NCBI GenBank assembly: GCA_016744975.1 | Contig: JADGDI010000007.1 | Location: 1-49,900 of the forward strand | DNA: 49,900 nt | Direction: 5' to 3' | Source of the DNA: Hyphomicrobiales bacterium | Lineage (GTDB): Bacteria; Pseudomonadota; Alphaproteobacteria; Rhizobiales; OSC116 | In this document: positions 25,942 through 34,835 of the stretch, piece by piece | Layout of the letters: each line of letters starts with the position of its first letter | Position numbering within the stretch: the stretch's first letter is position 1 | Translations under genes and position numbers: made by a program | Notes under the pieces: model-generated | The model's input: only the letters and a program-made list of their open reading frames with translations | Told to the model about the DNA's origin: nothing | Databases searched by the model: none

Positions 25942-26226
25942 TTAAATAAGATTGACTAGAGCAACCTTCATTGGGTGGATGGTTACAGTTTCAAACAGGC
26001 CAGCTTTGGCATAAGGGTCGGCGGCTAAACTTAGATCTAATGCGGCACGGTCTATTGCATCAACAAGCAATATTGAGCCTATCATTTTCTCCTCATCATC
26101 AAATAATGGGCCGCCTGCGATGATTTTTATGGCATCAGTACGCACAAATAATAAATGGGCTTCGCGGTTGGCCATTCTTAGCTCTAGTGAGTCTTTTTTA
26201 TCGTAACAGGTTACTGCAAAATGCAT
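25942..26226 (-). CDS. YciI-like protein
   Basis: This protein of about 94 residues opens with MHFAVTCYDKKDSLELRMANREAHL, a typical YciI start, and ends in DPYAKAGLFETVTIHPM, the conserved YciI C-terminal segment. YciI is a ferredoxin-like dimeric fold with a conserved His-Asp pair; no general biochemical function is established. An alternative ATG five codons upstream (26241) lacks a ribosome site, whereas GAAAG precedes 26226. It follows gpsA by about 55 bp, the same gpsA-yciI order I recall in other Rhizobiales, so they are probably co-transcribed. Confidence 0.85.
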   Translation of the reverse strand: MHFAVTCYDKKDSLELRMANREAHLLFVRTDAIKIIAGGPLFDDEEKMIGSILLVDAIDRAALDLSLAADPYAKAGLFETVTIHPMKVALVNLI

Positions 26227-26281
26227 ATTTTTGACTTTCATTTAAATTGTTAGCTTGTAGCATTTAGGTGTTTAACTTGGG

Positions 26282-27283
26282 CTATTCTTGTTTAATGGGT
26301 CGGTTGAGTAGGCGGGTGATGGCAGTGTCTACACCTTCAGTGCCTGCCACAATATTAGCGATGGATTGGCAAATTGGCATATCAATATCCAGCTCATTTG
26401 CCCATTTGGCTAAGATGGTAGAAGTATGCACACCTTCGCTGACACTTTGGCGCTGATCCATAATTTGTTGTAAGCTTTGACCTTGGCCAAGCGCCATGCC
26501 AAGTGACATATTGCGTGATAATGTACTGTTACAGGTTAGGGTTAAATCGCCCAAGCCAGATAAGCCAAATAGGGTTTGGCTTTTTGCGCCTAAAGCTGCG
26601 CCAAAACGGGTTAATTCGGCAAAGCCGCGGGTGGTGAGTGCAGCTCTTGCGCTATCGCCAAAGCCTTTGCCGTCTGAAATACCGCAAGCAATGGCTAAAA
26701 CATTTTTTACCGCTCCGCCAATTTGTGCGCCTATTAAGTCGGTTGAATGGTAAAGCCTAAAGGTTGGGATGGATAAGGCTTTGGCCAATGCTTTGCCCAA
26801 TGCTTCATCTGCCATTGCAAGGGTGATGGCCGTTGGTAGCCCTTTGGCAACATCAGCAGCAAAGCTTGGGCCTGATAAAATTCCGACTTGGGCAAGTGGC
26901 AGAACTTCTTGCATGACTTCAGTCATTAATTTTCGACTGTTTGCCTCTATGCCTTTGGCGCAGATTAAAATTGGAATGGGTTTCTTTAGAAACTCTGCGA
27001 AATCCTTAGCGACATGGCGCACTACTTGGGCGGGGGTAACCCAAAGCAGGGCGTCTAATTCAGCCATTTCGGATAATTGATTGGTGGCTTTAATGTTATG
27101 AGGCAGCGGAAAGCCTTTTAAAAAAACACTATTCTCATGGCTTTGGTTGATGCTATCAACCACTTCAGTTTCGCGCGCCCATATTAATGTATCATGGCCT
27201 GCTCTGGCTGCAATACAAGCCAATGCTGTACCCCATGCCCCTGCGCCAATAATGCCGATTTTAGAAAATGAAAGTTGTGCCAC
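26282..27283 (-). CDS. gpsA: Glycerol-3-phosphate dehydrogenase [NAD(P)+]
   Basis: The 333-residue enzyme has the dinucleotide motif GAGAWGTALA (13-22). CAKGIE (about residue 110) and GGAVKNVLAIACGISDG, containing the catalytic lysine (about residue 190), are also present. It makes sn-glycerol-3-phosphate from dihydroxyacetone phosphate for phospholipid synthesis in the cytoplasm. The start is a GTG (27281-27283); no ATG lies near, and the Rossmann motif begins 12 residues later, so the GTG is credible. It lies 94 bp after tsaD on the same strand. Confidence 0.94.
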   Translation of the reverse strand: MAQLSFSKIGIIGAGAWGTALACIAARAGHDTLIWARETEVVDSINQSHENSVFLKGFPLPHNIKATNQLSEMAELDALLWVTPAQVVRHVAKDFAEFLKKPIPILICAKGIEANSRKLMTEVMQEVLPLAQVGILSGPSFAADVAKGLPTAITLAMADEALGKALAKALSIPTFRLYHSTDLIGAQIGGAVKNVLAIACGISDGKGFGDSARAALTTRGFAELTRFGAALGAKSQTLFGLSGLGDLTLTCNSTLSRNMSLGMALGQGQSLQQIMDQRQSVSEGVHTSTILAKWANELDIDMPICQSIANIVAGTEGVDTAITRLLNRPIKQE

Positions 27284-27377: not shown

Positions 27378-28433
27378 TTAGTCATAAAGTGGCCAACGGG
27401 CTTTGGGCGGCGCGCTTAAATCGGATATATTGCCACGTAAATATTGTTCTATGCCTGCCCATGCAATCATAGCGCCATTGTCGGTACATAGCTTGGAGGG
27501 CGGAACAATTAGTTTGAAATTATGGTCACTGCTTAAAATATCTAACTTTTTGGCAATGGCTTTATTGGCTGCAACGCCGCCAGCGATAATGAGTGAACAA
27601 GTCTCATCATCCGCCATGTTTTTATTGTTTCTGAAAATCTGCATGGCGCGCTTAAGGCGGTCTTCAAGGCAATCGGCAGCGGCTTGTTGGAAGCCTGCAC
27701 AAATGTCATATTTATCTTGTTGTTTGATTGGCTCAATGGCTTTTGCAGCATGTAAAACGGCGGTTTTTAGGCCTGAAAATGAAAAGTCACAATTATTACG
27801 GCCTTTCATTGGGCGCGGTAATGAAAACCGAGTTGCATCACCTTGTTTGGCATATTGCTCAACAAATGGCCCGCCAGGGTAGCCAAGGTCTAATAATTTT
27901 GCAACTTTATCAAAGGCTTCGCCAATGGCATCGTCAATGGTACTGCCAAGTAACAGATAGTCGCCAAGGCCGTTGACCTGCAAAATTTGGGTATGACCAC
28001 CAGAGATTAACAGTAATAAATAAGGCGGTTTAAGCCCATTAGATAAGCCAGCGGTCAAAGCGTGGCCTTCTAAATGATTAACAGCAATGAGCGGTAAATC
28101 ATGCGCCAGTGCAATGGCTTTGCCGCTCATTAGCCCGACAATAACCCCCCCTAAAAGACCTGGGCCTGAAGTAGCTGCGACCAGATCCAATTGTTGATAA
28201 GTGACACCTGCTTCACTGAGTGCGGCGGTGACCATTTTATCCATATATTCAATATGGGCGCGGGCGGCAAGTTCTGGTACCACGCCGCCAAAGGGCGCAT
28301 GCACGTCGGTTTGGGTATGGACGATATTGGACAGGATTTCGGCTTTGCCATTTGGATGGCGTATTACGACACCTGCGGCGGTATCATCACAAGAGGATTC
28401 TAGCCCTAAACAGATGATTTGTTGACTGGGCAT
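27378..28433 (-). CDS. tsaD: tRNA N6-adenosine threonylcarbamoyltransferase
   Basis: This 351-residue ASKHA-fold protein has [15 protein letters not shown] (9-23), VPELAARAH (52-60), and the metal-binding HLEGH with histidines 120 and 124. ISGGHTQI is near 148. It transfers the threonylcarbamoyl group to A37 of ANN-decoding tRNAs together with TsaB and TsaE, which are not in this window. The ATG at 28433 with AGGA upstream is preferred to a TTG five codons earlier. It is divergent from hemC, a pairing seen widely in alphaproteobacteria. Confidence 0.95.
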
Positions 28434-28512
28434 ATGATAATCCTGCAAACTGGAGTGAATGGGCTTGCGCTATGCGCTCAATATTGTAAGAAGGTTTATA
28501 TTAATCGCCAAG

Positions 28513-29460
28513 ATGAGGCAAGCAGTGAATAACATCCCCCAAAATTTAAAATTACCCATTAAAATTGGTACGCGTGGCAGTTTATTGGCCATGACCCAAG
28601 CCAAACAAACCCGCTCTCGGTTAAAGTCGGCTTACGGCTTGAGCGATGGAGACTTTGAAATCATGGTGATTTCAACCACGGGTGATCGTGTTCAAGATAA
28701 AACCTTTTTGGAACTTGGCGGCAAAGGATTATTTACCAGCGAAATAGAAGTGAAATTACTTAATGGTGATATTGATATTGCCGTACATAGCATGAAAGAT
28801 GTGCCAACTATACGCCCCGATGGCATTGGCATTGACTGCATGTTGCCACGTGAAGATGTGCGCGATGCATTTTTATCGATTAAATATAACAGTTTGCAAG
28901 AGTTGCCCAAAGGTGCGGTGATCGGTACATCATCGTTGCGGCGTGGGGCAATTATTTTGGCCAAGCGGCCTGATTTGAAAATTGTCAACTTTCGTGGAAA
29001 TGTTGATACTCGGCTTAAAAAACTTGCTGATGGTGTGGTCGACGCGACTATTTTGGCAACTGCGGGGCTGAACCGTTTGGGCTTTAGCGATATGATTACG
29101 CAGGTAATCTCGGCCAATGACATGTTGCCGGCGGTAGCTCAGGGCGCTATTGGGCTTGAAACGCGCCTAGATGATGGTGCGAATATTCAATTATTATCGG
29201 CCATTAATTGCGGCGAAACACTGGCTGAAGTGAATATGGAGCGGGCATTTTTAAAAGCTTTAGATGGTTCTTGCCAAACGCCAATTGCTGCTTTGGCACA
29301 AATTTATGGTCAGCAGATTGAGTTTAAGGCGATGATTTTAAAGCCTGATGGTAGTGAGGTGCATGAAGCAAAAATTACTGCGCCATTAAACCTAGCAGAA
29401 AAATTTGGTCGCAATATTGGCCTTGAACTATTGGCAAAGGGCGGTGAAGGCTTCTTTTGA
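28513..29460 (+). CDS. hemC: Hydroxymethylbilane synthase (porphobilinogen deaminase)
   Basis: The protein polymerises four porphobilinogens to hydroxymethylbilane in haem synthesis. Seen are IGTRGSLLAMTQA near residue 17, TTGDRVQDK, HSMKDVPT near 92, RRGAIILAKRPDLKIVNFRGNVDTRL near 140, and the cofactor-binding cysteine in GSCQTPIAAL near 250. Starting at 28513 gives 315 residues, the usual length. An ATG at 28459 would add 18 atypical residues and leave only 25 bp to the divergent tsaD start. None of the candidate starts has a strong ribosome site, so the start is uncertain. hemD follows after 7 bp. Confidence 0.92.
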   Translation: MRQAVNNIPQNLKLPIKIGTRGSLLAMTQAKQTRSRLKSAYGLSDGDFEIMVISTTGDRVQDKTFLELGGKGLFTSEIEVKLLNGDIDIAVHSMKDVPTIRPDGIGIDCMLPREDVRDAFLSIKYNSLQELPKGAVIGTSSLRRGAIILAKRPDLKIVNFRGNVDTRLKKLADGVVDATILATAGLNRLGFSDMITQVISANDMLPAVAQGAIGLETRLDDGANIQLLSAINCGETLAEVNMERAFLKALDGSCQTPIAALAQIYGQQIEFKAMILKPDGSEVHEAKITAPLNLAEKFGRNIGLELLAKGGEGFF

Positions 29461-29467
29461 AAAATAA

Positions 29468-30238
29468 ATGATTATGAAAAATATAGTTGTAACCAGACCG
29501 AAAGAAGATTTTGAGCGCAGCGCTGAAAAAATTCGCGCTTTGGGCTATAATGTATTGCATAGCCCGATGATGGAATTTAAATTGCTTGAATTTGAGTTGC
29601 CAGCTATTGATGCATTTTCGGCACTGATATTCACCTCGGCCAATGGGGTTCGCGCGGTGGTTCAATCGGCACATTTTAAGCAATTAATACAGTTGCCATG
29701 TTATGTGGTGGGGCCGCAAAGTGCGGCTTTGGCAAAACAATATGGGTTTAAAGTTAATGCGATTGGTAATGGGGATGTTAAGGCTTTAAGTTTAACCATT
29801 GCTAGTGACTATCAATCTAAAAACCTCAGTAAAGCTTTATTGCATGTTTCTGGCCACCATCAGGCTGGGAATTTGGTGGATATGTTGGCAGAATTGACAA
29901 TAGAGGTTGAGCGACTTCAAGCGTATCATATGCTAGAAATAGGCCATATTGCACCAAAGGTATTAGGACTTATTGAAAAAACTGGTTTGTATGAAGATGT
30001 TGAAAAAATAGATGGTATATTATTATACTCTGCAAGAAGTGCAAAAATATTGTTTAAAAATTTGGCGGCTGCGCAAGTTTTAACAAAAATTAGTAATATT
30101 CAGATATATTGTTTATCAAAAAATATTGCAGGATGCGTTTGCAAGCCCTATTTAAAACATATATATTGGGTAAAGCAGCCAAATGAAGATGCGTTATTAG
30201 ATCTAATGCAACAAAATATGAAAATGAATGACGATTGA
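29468..30238 (+). CDS. hemD: Uroporphyrinogen-III synthase
   Basis: This 256-residue protein has the weakly conserved HemD pattern: VVTRPKEDFERSAEKIRALGY at the N-terminus, ALIFTSANGVRAV near residue 55, YVVGPQSAALAKQYGF near 78, and DGILLYSARSAKILFKNL near 180. It closes and isomerises hydroxymethylbilane to uroporphyrinogen III. The position directly after hemC supports the call. Codon usage is more AT-rich than in the neighbours. The mitofilin-like gene follows after 21 bp, so hemC, hemD and the next genes probably form one operon. Confidence 0.88.
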   Translation: MIMKNIVVTRPKEDFERSAEKIRALGYNVLHSPMMEFKLLEFELPAIDAFSALIFTSANGVRAVVQSAHFKQLIQLPCYVVGPQSAALAKQYGFKVNAIGNGDVKALSLTIASDYQSKNLSKALLHVSGHHQAGNLVDMLAELTIEVERLQAYHMLEIGHIAPKVLGLIEKTGLYEDVEKIDGILLYSARSAKILFKNLAAAQVLTKISNIQIYCLSKNIAGCVCKPYLKHIYWVKQPNEDALLDLMQQNMKMNDD

Positions 30239-30259: not shown

Positions 30260-31615
30260 ATGAGTGATGAAAAAAAACAAAATCAACAATCAGATGATGT
30301 CGTCACAGATGATGTCTCTAATGTGAGTGATGATGTAAATGGTGATGCAGAAGTTGTTGAAATAGAAGCTGAAACATCTGAAACGGAATTTGATGCGCCA
30401 GAAGATGCCGCTGAAATGCCTGAGTCACAGGCGCAGAATAAGCCTGGTGCAGGAGTTGGCCGCTTGTTTATTGCGGCAGTTTTAGGTGGTGTTGCAACCA
30501 TTGCGCTCAGTTTAGGAGGTGGGTATTATGCACTTAAATCCAATAATCTTGGTGCTATTGGTACATTGATTAATGACGGTGGTGGCTCGAGTGATTTGCT
30601 TGAAGAGCAATATACTGACCTATCAACACGCATATTATCGCTTGAAGGTGAGCATGCTAATGCTGGCCAGATTGATGAAAGTGCGCTTGCTGACCTTGGC
30701 CCTGTTGCCAAGAAAATTGCTAGCCTTGAAGGAATGCTTAACAATTATCGGGATGAGAATAAAAAACTTGCTGAACAATTGTTTGAATTGCAGCAGGTAT
30801 TAGACAATTCAGCAAATGTTACGCCAAGTGATGATTTTGATAATGGCTTAATTGCTGCCATGCAGGCGCAAATTGCTGAACTTAAAAAGGCAACCAGCCA
30901 ATCTGGCGATGCGGATGTGATTAATCGGGCGATTAGCGATGCACAAATGACGGTGATTAGCGATTCGCAAAATAAGGCGGTGGCCATTATTAATGATAAA
31001 ATTGCCAAACTAGATACTGCGCTTAATGATGTGAAGTCAATTGCGCAAAATGCAGCAGAGCAAGCTGTTGCTGCTGGAAGCGGTAATACTCTGAGCAATA
31101 AAGATGCCAGTAATATGGCTTCGGCTTTGGCTGTGGCTGCGCTTGAGCGGGCATTGCAAGATGAACGCCCATTTGAGGTTGAACTGAATGCATTAAATGG
31201 ATTTGTTAAAGATGGTGGTGCATTGGCACAATTAGGCAGTTATGCAAAAACGGGTTTGGCCAGTGAGGTTACATTATTTAACCAATTTGAGAGCCTATTA
31301 GAAGCTGCTTTGGTTGCAGATTTAAAGGGTGACGGTAAGTCGGTACTGGATAAATTTATCGGTAATGCAAAATCCATCATCTCGATTAGGCGCACTGGCA
31401 ATATTGAAGGGGATGAAACCGAAGCGGTTCTAGCCCGGATAGAAGTTGCTGTTATGGCTAAAGACTTAAGCGGTGCGGTTGCACAAGCAGATGGGCTTAA
31501 AGGCCCCGCAAAAGCTGTGTTTGCAACTTGGGTTGCTGGTGCAAAGTCTCGGTTAGCTGCCAAAGATTTAATGCGTCAAGTGAGCAGTGATATTTTAACA
31601 TCGCTTAGTGAATAA
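30260..31615 (+). CDS. Alphaproteobacterial mitofilin (Mic60-like) membrane protein, COG4223 type
   Basis: This 451-residue protein has an acidic N-terminal cytoplasmic part (residues 1-65). One membrane segment (about 66-88, FIAAVLGGVATIALSLGGGYYAL) is followed by a coiled-coil-rich region (about 105-290). The C-terminal helical domain resembles the mitofilin signature (ALERALQDERPFEVELNALNGFVK near 295, then about 150 more residues). Mic60 shapes crista junctions in mitochondria, and alphaproteobacterial homologues beside haem genes have been proposed as its ancestors and as organisers of intracytoplasmic membranes. The role here is inferred. It lies between hemD and the HemY-like gene, 17 bp from the latter. 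Confidence 0.84.
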   Translation: MSDEKKQNQQSDDVVTDDVSNVSDDVNGDAEVVEIEAETSETEFDAPEDAAEMPESQAQNKPGAGVGRLFIAAVLGGVATIALSLGGGYYALKSNNLGAIGTLINDGGGSSDLLEEQYTDLSTRILSLEGEHANAGQIDESALADLGPVAKKIASLEGMLNNYRDENKKLAEQLFELQQVLDNSANVTPSDDFDNGLIAAMQAQIAELKKATSQSGDADVINRAISDAQMTVISDSQNKAVAIINDKIAKLDTALNDVKSIAQNAAEQAVAAGSGNTLSNKDASNMASALAVAALERALQDERPFEVELNALNGFVKDGGALAQLGSYAKTGLASEVTLFNQFESLLEAALVADLKGDGKSVLDKFIGNAKSIISIRRTGNIEGDETEAVLARIEVAVMAKDLSGAVAQADGLKGPAKAVFATWVAGAKSRLAAKDLMRQVSSDILTSLSE

Positions 31616-31632
31616 TAGTTGGGTAAAGAATT

Positions 31633-33531
31633 ATGATTAGATTAATTGGCTATTTTATTGCATTTGCGGCATTTGTAACCGCTATTGTGTGGCTGAATAA
31701 TAACCCTGGATTTGTTGAGTTTAGCTGGTTTGGCTATCATATTAAAAGCTCAATCGGCTTGTTTATAGCAGCTGGAGTGATGATTGTCATTTTGGCAATT
31801 ATCACTTGGCGACTGGTGCGGGCAATTCTTGGTGCGCCGGATGCATTTGGAATATTTTTTAGTAGCCGCCGCCGCCGAAAAGGTTTTGATGCGCTATCTA
31901 AAGGCATTATTGCTGTAGGCAGTGGTGACATTAAGGCTGCGCATAAATTTTCACGTATTGCCGATGATAAATTGGATGATGAGCCGCTAACTTTATTGTT
32001 AAAAGCCCAAGCAGCGCAACTTGAAGGCAATGCTGATGCTGCCCATGCGGCATTTGAGAAAATGAGCAAACAAAGTGCGACAAAAATGTTGGGTTTGCGT
32101 GGTTTATTTGTTGAAGCAGAGCGCCAAGGTAATGGTGCTAATGCTAAGTTAATCGCCTTAGATGCTGTGGCACATAATGGCCAAAGCAAATGGGCAATAA
32201 ATGGGTTGTTTGATTTGCAAACGGCCGAAGGCGATTGGGCCGGCGCGCTTAATACATTATTGATGAAGGGCCGTTTGAGCGGTAGTGATGCGATAAAAAT
32301 AAAGCGCCAACGCGCGGTTTTGTTAACTGGTGAGGCCATGCATATTGAAGCAGATCATGCTGAGCGGGCATTGGAATTAACGTTAGAAGCCCGCAACCTT
32401 GCGCCTGAACTGGTGCCTGCAACCTTGCTTGCAGCAAAATTATTATTGGCCAAAGGTAGCGTTCGTAAAGCCCATAAATTACTCGAAAAATGTTGGCGCC
32501 TTGCACCGCACCCAGAATTGGGCGCATTGTTTGCGCAAGCAAAAGATGGCGAAACGGACAAGGTTATTTTAAAGCGTGTGCAAAATTTTGCCGCAAAAGC
32601 TGGAGTTGGCAATAGTGCAGTTAAGGCGCAGGCGACGATTGAAGCTGCGGTTCTGGTGGCGCGGGTGGCAATTGATTATAAAGATTGGAACGTGGCACGA
32701 GAGGCACTTGAAAATATTGTTGCCGACGGGCCAAGTGCAAGGGTTTGCACCTTGATGGCTAAAATTGAGCAAGGTGAACTTGGCAATAAAGGCTTGGTTG
32801 CTGAATGGTTGGCGCGCGCGCAACATGCTGGCGGTGACCCTATATGGTTGGCCGATGGGCATATTGCAGCGCAGTGGGCGCCGATTTCACCCATTTCGGG
32901 CGCGCTAGATGCTTATGAATGGAAAATGCCGGATTATCATTTGGCAAAAGTTGAAGCAGATTTAGCCGCGAATATTTTGCTTGAACATCATGAAATTGAG
33001 CAGATTGCTATTGAAGTTCAGGAAAAAACACTGGTAGAATCCAAAGCGCTAGAAATAGTTGCTAATGAAGCCAAAGCGAATGAAGCCAAAGCAATTAAGG
33101 ACAAAAATCTTGAGCAAGAAAAAACTGTACAGCTTGAAAAAAATAAGTTGGAACAAGAAAAGGCTGAAGAAACACGACTTGAAATTGCTAAGCTAGTAAA
33201 AGATGACGATGAAGGCACTGGTGGTAACGGTAGTAATGACGGTAAAACTGATAAAAGTGTTAAATCTGATAATAATACAGCGCTACAACCTGCTGATGAC
33301 AGTCCGCAAAATTCAGGCGCTCAAGTTTCACAAGGTTTGCTGAAAAATGCAAAAAATAAGATTGTAGATGGATCACACAGCCCTTACCGCTCTAGTCCTG
33401 TGACTAATGTTGATGTTAAAGAGCAGGTTGGCCTTGTCCGCCGTCCTGATGACCCTGGTTTGTTAAGCGAGGATGAGGGCGTGAACTTTGAAGCCAAAGA
33501 ACATATTGGTTATTACACTGACCCTAAATAA
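31633..33531 (+). CDS. hemY: HemY-like TPR membrane protein with long charged C-terminal tail
   Basis: This 632-residue protein has two N-terminal membrane segments (about 1-22 and 37-64), as in HemY_N proteins. Tetratricopeptide-like helical repeats follow (about 80-430; for example ALSKGIIAVGSGDIKAAHKFSR and LLAKGSVRKAHKLLEKCWRLAP). The last 170 residues are rich in Glu, Lys and Asp and look disordered. This HemY is unrelated to the oxidase of the same name; its function is unclear beyond linkage to haem synthesis. It sits between the Mic60-like gene and a TerB-like gene 11 bp downstream, in one probable operon. A short tandem repeat lies in the tail (33064-33093). Confidence 0.86.
   Translation: MIRLIGYFIAFAAFVTAIVWLNNNPGFVEFSWFGYHIKSSIGLFIAAGVMIVILAIITWRLVRAILGAPDAFGIFFSSRRRRKGFDALSKGIIAVGSGDIKAAHKFSRIADDKLDDEPLTLLLKAQAAQLEGNADAAHAAFEKMSKQSATKMLGLRGLFVEAERQGNGANAKLIALDAVAHNGQSKWAINGLFDLQTAEGDWAGALNTLLMKGRLSGSDAIKIKRQRAVLLTGEAMHIEADHAERALELTLEARNLAPELVPATLLAAKLLLAKGSVRKAHKLLEKCWRLAPHPELGALFAQAKDGETDKVILKRVQNFAAKAGVGNSAVKAQATIEAAVLVARVAIDYKDWNVAREALENIVADGPSARVCTLMAKIEQGELGNKGLVAEWLARAQHAGGDPIWLADGHIAAQWAPISPISGALDAYEWKMPDYHLAKVEADLAANILLEHHEIEQIAIEVQEKTLVESKALEIVANEAKANEAKAIKDKNLEQEKTVQLEKNKLEQEKAEETRLEIAKLVKDDDEGTGGNGSNDGKTDKSVKSDNNTALQPADDSPQNSGAQVSQGLLKNAKNKIVDGSHSPYRSSPVTNVDVKEQVGLVRRPDDPGLLSEDEGVNFEAKEHIGYYTDPK
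33064..33093 (+). repeat. 15-bp tandem repeat in the HemY-like tail
   Basis: Two copies of a 15-bp unit (33064-33078, 33079-33093; one difference, at the last base) encode the NEAKA repeat in the charged tail. A frame-preserving duplication is the simplest explanation. Confidence 0.7.
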
Positions 33532-33542
33532 AGAGTTTGATT

Positions 33543-33998
33543 ATGTGGCAGAAATTAAAGAAATTTGCAGATAAACTAATGGGTGATGCACCACAAACTG
33601 CGGAACTTGAAGATGATGATTTTAAAGTTGCTGCTGTGGCCTTAATGGTACATGCAGCGCGCATTGATGGCTTTTATAGTGATGAAGAAGCGACCATCAT
33701 GCGAAGGCAAATCCAGAAATATTTTAAGATCAACGCGGAAGAAGCTGAAGCGCTGGTAAAAAATGCTGATAAAGCTGAGCGAGACTCAATTGATTTGTAT
33801 AAATTTACCAGTAAATTATCTGAAAGATTAGACAATGCCGGGCGCAAAGAAATTGTGCGTTTATTGTGGCATATCGTGTTGGCCGACCATGAAGTCACAC
33901 CGTTTGAAGATAATTTAATCTGGCGGGTTGCTGAATTGTTGGGTGTTTCAAGCAATGACCGAATTGCAATTAGAGATGATATTAAGAATTCGCTATAG
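33543..33998 (+). CDS. TerB-like (tellurite-resistance/DUF533-type) helical protein
   Basis: This 151-residue protein is all-helical. It has AAVALMVHAARIDGFYSDEEATIMRR (about residues 28-53) and HIVLADHEVTPFEDNLIWRVAELLGVS (about 112-138), two acidic D-G-x-x-x-x-x-E and D-x-x-x-x-x-x-E repeats typical of TerB domains that bind metal. No other ter genes are present, so tellurite resistance is not implied. The ATG at 33543, with AAGAG upstream, is preferred to a TTG two codons earlier. It closes the hemC-hemD-Mic60-hemY run, 11 bp after the HemY-like gene. Confidence 0.8.
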   Translation: MWQKLKKFADKLMGDAPQTAELEDDDFKVAAVALMVHAARIDGFYSDEEATIMRRQIQKYFKINAEEAEALVKNADKAERDSIDLYKFTSKLSERLDNAGRKEIVRLLWHIVLADHEVTPFEDNLIWRVAELLGVSSNDRIAIRDDIKNSL

Positions 33999-34046: not shown

Positions 34047-34835
34047 ATGACAGAGCAAAAACTGATCACATTAATTACAGGCGCGTCTGGCGGTATTGGT
34101 GAATATTTGGCTTATCAATTTGCCGCACAAGGTGAAGATTTACTATTGGTTGCGCGCTCTGAAGATAAATTGCAAAAACTATCAGCAAAAATTGAGGCAC
34201 GATATAAAGTGAAGGTGGCCATTTTTACATTGGATTTAAGCGCTCAAAATGCATGCGATCGGCTTGATAAATACGTTAATGATAATGGTTTTAGCGTTAA
34301 ACATTTGGTTAATAATGCAGGCTTTGGCCTTAATGGCTCTATGGCTAAGTTGGATAGTGATGAGCAGTTAAATATGATTGACTTGAATGTGCGGGCGCTC
34401 GCGGATTTATCTTTACGCTATTTGGCGGATGTTACTAAAAACGCCGGCGGCATTATGAATGTTGCCTCGACCATTTCGTTTATGGCAGCGCCATATATGG
34501 GGGTTTATGGTGCTACTAAAGCCTTTGTTTTGTCATTCACTGAAGCTTTGGCACAAGAGAATGTTAATAAAAATATTAAAATAAGCGCGATTTGCCCTGG
34601 CCCAACCAAAACAGGTTTTGGCGTGCGCTCTCATATTGACCGCTCAGATTTATTTGATTATGTACCAACCATGAGTGCTGAAGAGGTCGCTAAAATTGCC
34701 TTTCAAGGCTATATGCGTGGTCAGGTTATTGTGGTAACTGGCATTAGCAACAAGCCTTTGCCATATTTAGTGCGCTTAACACCTAGATGGATGTTGCGTA
34801 AAATTGCCAGTAGATTGATGAGCACAGAAAGGTGA
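34047..34835 (+). CDS. Short-chain dehydrogenase/reductase (SDR family, YqjQ/DltE-like)
   Basis: The 262-residue protein has the cofactor motif TGASGGIG (11-18), NNAG (89-92), and the catalytic set Ser141, Tyr154 and Lys158 in YGATK. It is therefore a complete classical SDR. Arg37 after the second strand (VARSEDKL) favours NADP(H). The substrate is unknown; the closest resemblance I see is to the DltE/YqjQ group of generic ketone or aldehyde reductases. It follows the TerB-like gene by 48 bp and may belong to the same transcript, and it is convergent with maeB. Confidence 0.85.
   Translation: MTEQKLITLITGASGGIGEYLAYQFAAQGEDLLLVARSEDKLQKLSAKIEARYKVKVAIFTLDLSAQNACDRLDKYVNDNGFSVKHLVNNAGFGLNGSMAKLDSDEQLNMIDLNVRALADLSLRYLADVTKNAGGIMNVASTISFMAAPYMGVYGATKAFVLSFTEALAQENVNKNIKISAICPGPTKTGFGVRSHIDRSDLFDYVPTMSAEEVAKIAFQGYMRGQVIVVTGISNKPLPYLVRLTPRWMLRKIASRLMSTER

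Follow-up and report, generated by a model that had tools for sequence, protein, structure and literature searches.

The window studied here, by which we mean the whole stretch of 49,900 nucleotides that was analysed (contig C169), belongs to a metagenome-assembled genome of 2.77 Mb (191 contigs, 95% complete) whose nearest named relatives are the uncultured Hyphomicrobiales MAGs NORP94, DT_98 and DT_99. It contains a haem operon in which hemC and hemD are followed by genes for a mitofilin-domain protein, a HemY-like protein, a TerB protein and a short-chain dehydrogenase (SDR), with a conserved partner block on the opposite strand (Table 1).

Table 1. Genes of the haem run and of its opposite-strand partner block, in window coordinates.
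Feature	Coordinates	Strand	Evidence or remark
yciI	25942-26241	-	beyond tsaD in conserved partner block
gpsA	26282-27283	-	beyond tsaD in conserved partner block
tsaD	27378-28448	-	TsaD 8.6e-92; head-to-head with hemC
hemC, hydroxymethylbilane synthase	28459-29460	+	TIGR00212 3.2e-104; Pfam 2.9e-78
hemD, uroporphyrinogen-III synthase	29468-30238	+	PF02602 9.4e-30
Alphaproteobacterial Mic60	30260-31615	+	Pfam Mitofilin 4.8e-9, 36.1 bits; residues 249-438
HemY-like TPR membrane protein	31633-33531	+	HemY_N 6.4e-24
Standalone TerB-fold protein, 151 aa from ATG	33543-33998	+	PF05099 1.8e-33
Short-chain dehydrogenase (SDR)	34047-34835	+	adh_short 4.2e-40

The three frames that the first-pass annotation had delimited behind hemC and hemD are all present, and Pfam identifies their products, as it had read them, as proteins with mitofilin, HemY_N/TPR and TerB domains. 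The tight spacing it had described also holds, with gaps of 7 bp between hemC and hemD, 21 bp between hemD and mic60, 17 bp between mic60 and hemY, and 11 bp between hemY and terB. This last value is counted from the ATG at 33543, which is the likely start of terB because homologues begin M(W/F)...; the TTG at 33537 from which the frame had been read (33537-33998, leaving 5 bp) is probably wrong. The real start of hemC, too, is probably later than 28459. The operon-like run reaches one gene past terB, to the SDR, across 48 bp, and no terminator-like site was found in any intergenic gap of the hemD-SDR stretch. A single long transcript from hemD to the SDR is plausible from this layout.

Judged by its sequence, the product of the first of these frames is a true mitofilin-domain protein. 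It has an acidic N-terminal tail, one TM helix (about residues 65-89, in a single hydrophobic stretch at about 63-89 with a mean hydropathy of 2.08), a helical or coiled-coil middle and a C-terminal mitofilin domain that scores above the Pfam cut-off of 27.4 bits. Coiled-coil proteins dominate the PDB matches to the middle region and swamp a profile of the whole protein, and the PDB was therefore searched with the domain only (C-terminal 230 residues, 17 homologues). The best match was then the MIC60-MIC19 fusion 7pv1 (3.4e-9), with mostly coiled-coil proteins well below it. The AF2 model of the same 230 residues (pLDDT 82) opens with a 50-residue helix of low to moderate confidence. Foldseek gave no significant match to it, the solved crystal construct being a short fusion, and the identity of the domain therefore rests on sequence profiles.

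The HemY-like protein combines two N-terminal TM helices, an RRRRK motif after TM2 and a TPR region. Its family is indicated by HemY_N together with weak TPR matches (Pfam) and two TM stretches (hydropathy); against the model of the E. coli-type HemY equivalog, TIGR00540, it scores 63.6 bits (1.4e-17), below the cut-off of 142. Behind the TPR region (window 33000-33500), its C-terminus is charged and of low complexity, with KANEAKA-type repeats, and varies in length among genus members.

For TerB, the domain test is unambiguous (115.8 bits versus a curated PF05099 cut-off of 24.4). A sequence profile against the PDB returned chance matches only (designed knots, calmodulin), and it was the fold search that settled the fold: with the AF2 model (pLDDT 84.9), Foldseek recovers 2h5n (3.8e-4, TM about 0.62) and 2ou3, a COG3793 protein (TM 0.57, probability 1.00). 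Two acidic pairs, D42/E49 and D115/E122, are invariant in an alignment of 22 homologues and are suggestive of metal-binding residues. The protein has no TM helix, and its first helix is strongly amphipathic (moment 0.74). The same genome encodes a second TerB, a DjlA-type TerB-DnaJ fusion (L002, 1174-2088, G000:C128; TerB 6.8e-28, DnaJ 2.6e-9).

The membrane topology of these proteins bears on what TerB could touch. By the positive-inside rule, the RRRRK motif after TM2 places the TPR region of HemY in the cytoplasm, and TerB is predicted on that same side. In mitochondria, the mitofilin domain of Mic60 faces the intermembrane space, and that of the window protein is likewise predicted to be periplasmic. 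TerB could thus make contact with HemY or with the acidic tail of Mic60 on the cytoplasmic side, and the predicted topology argues against contact with the mitofilin domain.

The pairing of mic60 and hemY is constant in the order. In our sample of 111 genomes, Pfam Mitofilin, which is a weak model for bacteria, has matches in 37, and in 37/37 (21 families) the match lies directly upstream of hemY on the same strand, 98-332 bp from the HemY_N domain. HemY itself is present in 110/111 genomes, and because it is nearly universal its presence or absence is uninformative relative to that of TerB. An operon HemC-HemD-mitofilin-HemY, head-to-head with TsaD-GpsA-YciI-EVE, has been published for alphaproteobacteria (PMC7641849), and two reviews describe a role of bacterial Mic60 in membrane development (PMC12136173, PMC12631773). 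The window has the genes of that operon in the same order and orientation, with tsaD, gpsA and yciI likewise encoded opposite to it, and differs in that terB and the SDR lengthen the haem run; the EVE gene, with which the tsaD-gpsA-yciI block of alphaproteobacteria usually ends, was sought throughout the window and not found. The hemC-hemD-mitofilin-HemY part is therefore standard for alphaproteobacteria: the mic60-like and HemY-like block noted in the first pass is real, both in its domain match and in its constant pair, and is not new, since both were already published. Our literature search for mic60 with the haem operon gave no matches. The surroundings of the block are rearranged within one genus (L042, L043 and L045 compared with the window): L042 has gpsA-yciI turned round with respect to tsaD, and L043 has folD-yggT inverted, with maeB on the other side.

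The position of terB is far less regular. It lies directly behind hemY in all five members of the window's genus that were examined (gaps of 11-83 bp), in the coded families f24, f26 and f34, and, across gaps of roughly 40-180 bp, in named Phyllobacteriaceae such as Mesorhizobium, Chelativorans, Nitratireductor, Aquamicrobium, Aquibium and Pseudaminobacter; coded and named families were obtained with different tools, and some of them may coincide, f24 probably among them. The adjacency is thus not a peculiarity of one strain. Yet among the 93 genomes of the order with both hemY and terB in the lists used (42 families), it is a minority state, found in 9 genomes and 4 families, and most genomes have TerB without hemY nearby. 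In another 17 genomes of the order, hemY is present and the list used gives no strong standalone TerB. Outside the order, the class sample showed no direct adjacency on inspection. The closest case there, an apparent adjacency in G213, has terB about 2.7 kb past hemY, the two being separated by genes for an alpha/beta hydrolase and a hemerythrin-like protein. The adjacency of TerB to the haem cluster hence recurs in the genus and in further families of the order, and was not seen in the other orders sampled. A looser linkage is much more widespread: in 29/93 genomes from 15 families, terB shares the strand of hemY and follows it at a distance of no more than 50 kb, against about 0.55 genomes expected by chance. 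The spacing can be as short as 11 bp or exceed 50 kb (about 9 kb in Bradyrhizobium), the genes in the interval differ between families, and the hemY-adjacent TerBs form four separate clusters on the TerB tree.

TerB has a steadier partner on its other side. Clustering of the genes around TerB at about 40 loci showed that at most of them the next gene downstream, or the next but one behind an SDR, encodes a class-I glutamine amidotransferase (Pfam GATase 7e-17). Where both genes are present in the order sample, the amidotransferase follows terB within 1.8 kb in 63/77 genomes and 31/35 families, including many genomes in which hemY is far away. The SDR adjoins terB in the window's genus and at many other loci with TerB across the order (L024, L027, L056, L064, L059 and others), and the trio TerB-SDR-amidotransferase is found away from hemY, for example in L024, L027, L029, L087, L106 and L139. 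TerB is therefore tied more strongly to this block than to mic60-hemY. The block often runs on to yggT, folD and ppa, and in the window these three genes still lie downstream, at a distance of a few kb. In the three genus members of the order sample, including the window genome, there were no amidotransferase matches, and terB-SDR is kept in all five members examined; the amidotransferase thus appears to have been lost in this genus, as read from a 95% complete MAG, and the dehydrogenase kept. Our literature searches found no paper on the terB-amidotransferase pair, nothing relevant on TerB with HemY or with glutamine amidotransferase, and no description of the order-wide linkage of hemY to the TerB-SDR-amidotransferase block. 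The terB-linked enzymes are uncharacterised class-I amidotransferases (for instance L055 14172-14900 and L056 16504-17217) and may deserve separate study.

It is likely, in our opinion, that the locus consists of two neighbouring chromosomal blocks placed end to end. The first would be the known haem operon, hemC-hemD-mic60-hemY, in which Mic60, anchored by one TM helix and with a periplasmic coiled coil and mitofilin domain, would shape or tether the inner membrane, and the HemY-like TPR protein encoded next door would be its cytoplasm-facing partner. The second would be the order-specific terB-(SDR)-glutamine amidotransferase block, often continued by yggT, folD and ppa. In the window's genus, the amidotransferase would have been lost, and terB-SDR would have come to lie close behind hemY, probably in one transcript. 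TerB would be a small helical protein of the cytoplasm, acidic and possibly metal-binding, whose amphipathic N-terminal helix may hold it at the membrane; its role probably belongs with the SDR/amidotransferase block and not with Mic60. The regional linkage (29/93) explains the juxtaposition of hemY and terB. What speaks against this reading is that the short gaps in the genus and the adjacency in four lineages may have been favoured by selection for expressing terB together with hemY-mic60, and that f1, f26 and f34, families devoid of the amidotransferase, have terB directly behind hemY.

Alternatively, TerB could be a functional third member of a Mic60-HemY system, a cytoplasmic, metal-binding and membrane-associated protein that docks on the TPR region of HemY and has a regulatory effect on haem synthesis or on the shaping of membranes. 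The order-wide linkage far above chance, the gaps of 11-83 bp, the conserved acidic pairs, the amphipathic helix and the predicted location of TerB on the side of the HemY TPR region would all suit it. We nonetheless find it unlikely, given that direct adjacency is restricted to 4/42 families and absent by inspection from the class sample outside the order (where G213 comes closest), that 17 genomes have hemY with no strong standalone TerB in the list used, that the tie to amidotransferase and SDR is stronger, and that the mitofilin domain is predicted on the opposite side of the membrane. A narrower version, in which TerB is a regulatory subunit of Mic60-HemY in Hyphomicrobiales that senses a cytoplasmic divalent metal, controls HemY and thereby couples haem supply to membrane organisation, is less likely still. 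At the other extreme, the linkage could be frozen housekeeping synteny with neither functional or regulatory meaning nor co-transcription, as the variable spacing and the different interval genes of different families would suggest; however, all genus members keep gaps of 11-83 bp with no terminator-like site between hemY and terB, so that one transcript is likely in the genus, and we think such frozen synteny unlikely as well. As for tellurite resistance conferred by TerB as part of a ter operon, membership in PF05099 and the Foldseek match to a COG3793 protein would be in its favour, but Pfam scans of the flanking genes found no TerA, TerC, TerD or TerE, the neighbours being haem, SDR and housekeeping genes, and in most genomes of the order standalone TerB has one chromosomal gene, surrounded by housekeeping genes, which makes such a role extremely unlikely.

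Since hemY adjacency is a minority state (9/93 genomes), the amidotransferase is a steadier partner (63/77) and topology argues against contact with the mitofilin domain, the membrane-organising unit of Mic60, HemY and TerB raised in the first-pass annotation is weakly supported. The linkage of two neighbouring blocks fits the data better, and TerB is better explained as an ordinary neighbour: its gene would open a block that, in part of the Hyphomicrobiales, borders directly on the haem operon. Mic60 was passed to mitochondria from alphaproteobacteria, and any conserved extra partner of the bacterial protein would bear on the origin of cristae. The window adds another clear bacterial mic60-hemY locus.

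Several known systems resemble parts of this locus. The gammaproteobacterial hemCDXY operon has the same layout, hemC-hemD followed by a single-TM coiled-coil protein, HemX, and then HemY; the third gene differs in that the window protein has a recognisable mitofilin domain. Munoz-Gomez et al., in Curr Biol in 2023, reportedly also examined BamA and Orf52, the HemY-like gene adjoining alphaproteobacterial mic60, to which the HemY-like gene of the window presumably corresponds in position; the two reviews named above cite this work and confirm the role of mic60. As in that Mic60-Orf52 system, the window has a single-TM coiled-coil protein with a C-terminal mitofilin domain between hemD and the HemY-like gene; it differs in having terB directly behind, and in coming from an uncultured genus without known photosynthetic or other intracytoplasmic membranes. 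With the standalone TerB family (PF05099/COG3793; 2h5n, 2ou3), the window TerB shares sequence family, all-helical fold and paired acidic motifs, whereas its identity to the solved structures is about 17-20% and its context is that of chromosomal housekeeping genes instead of a ter operon.
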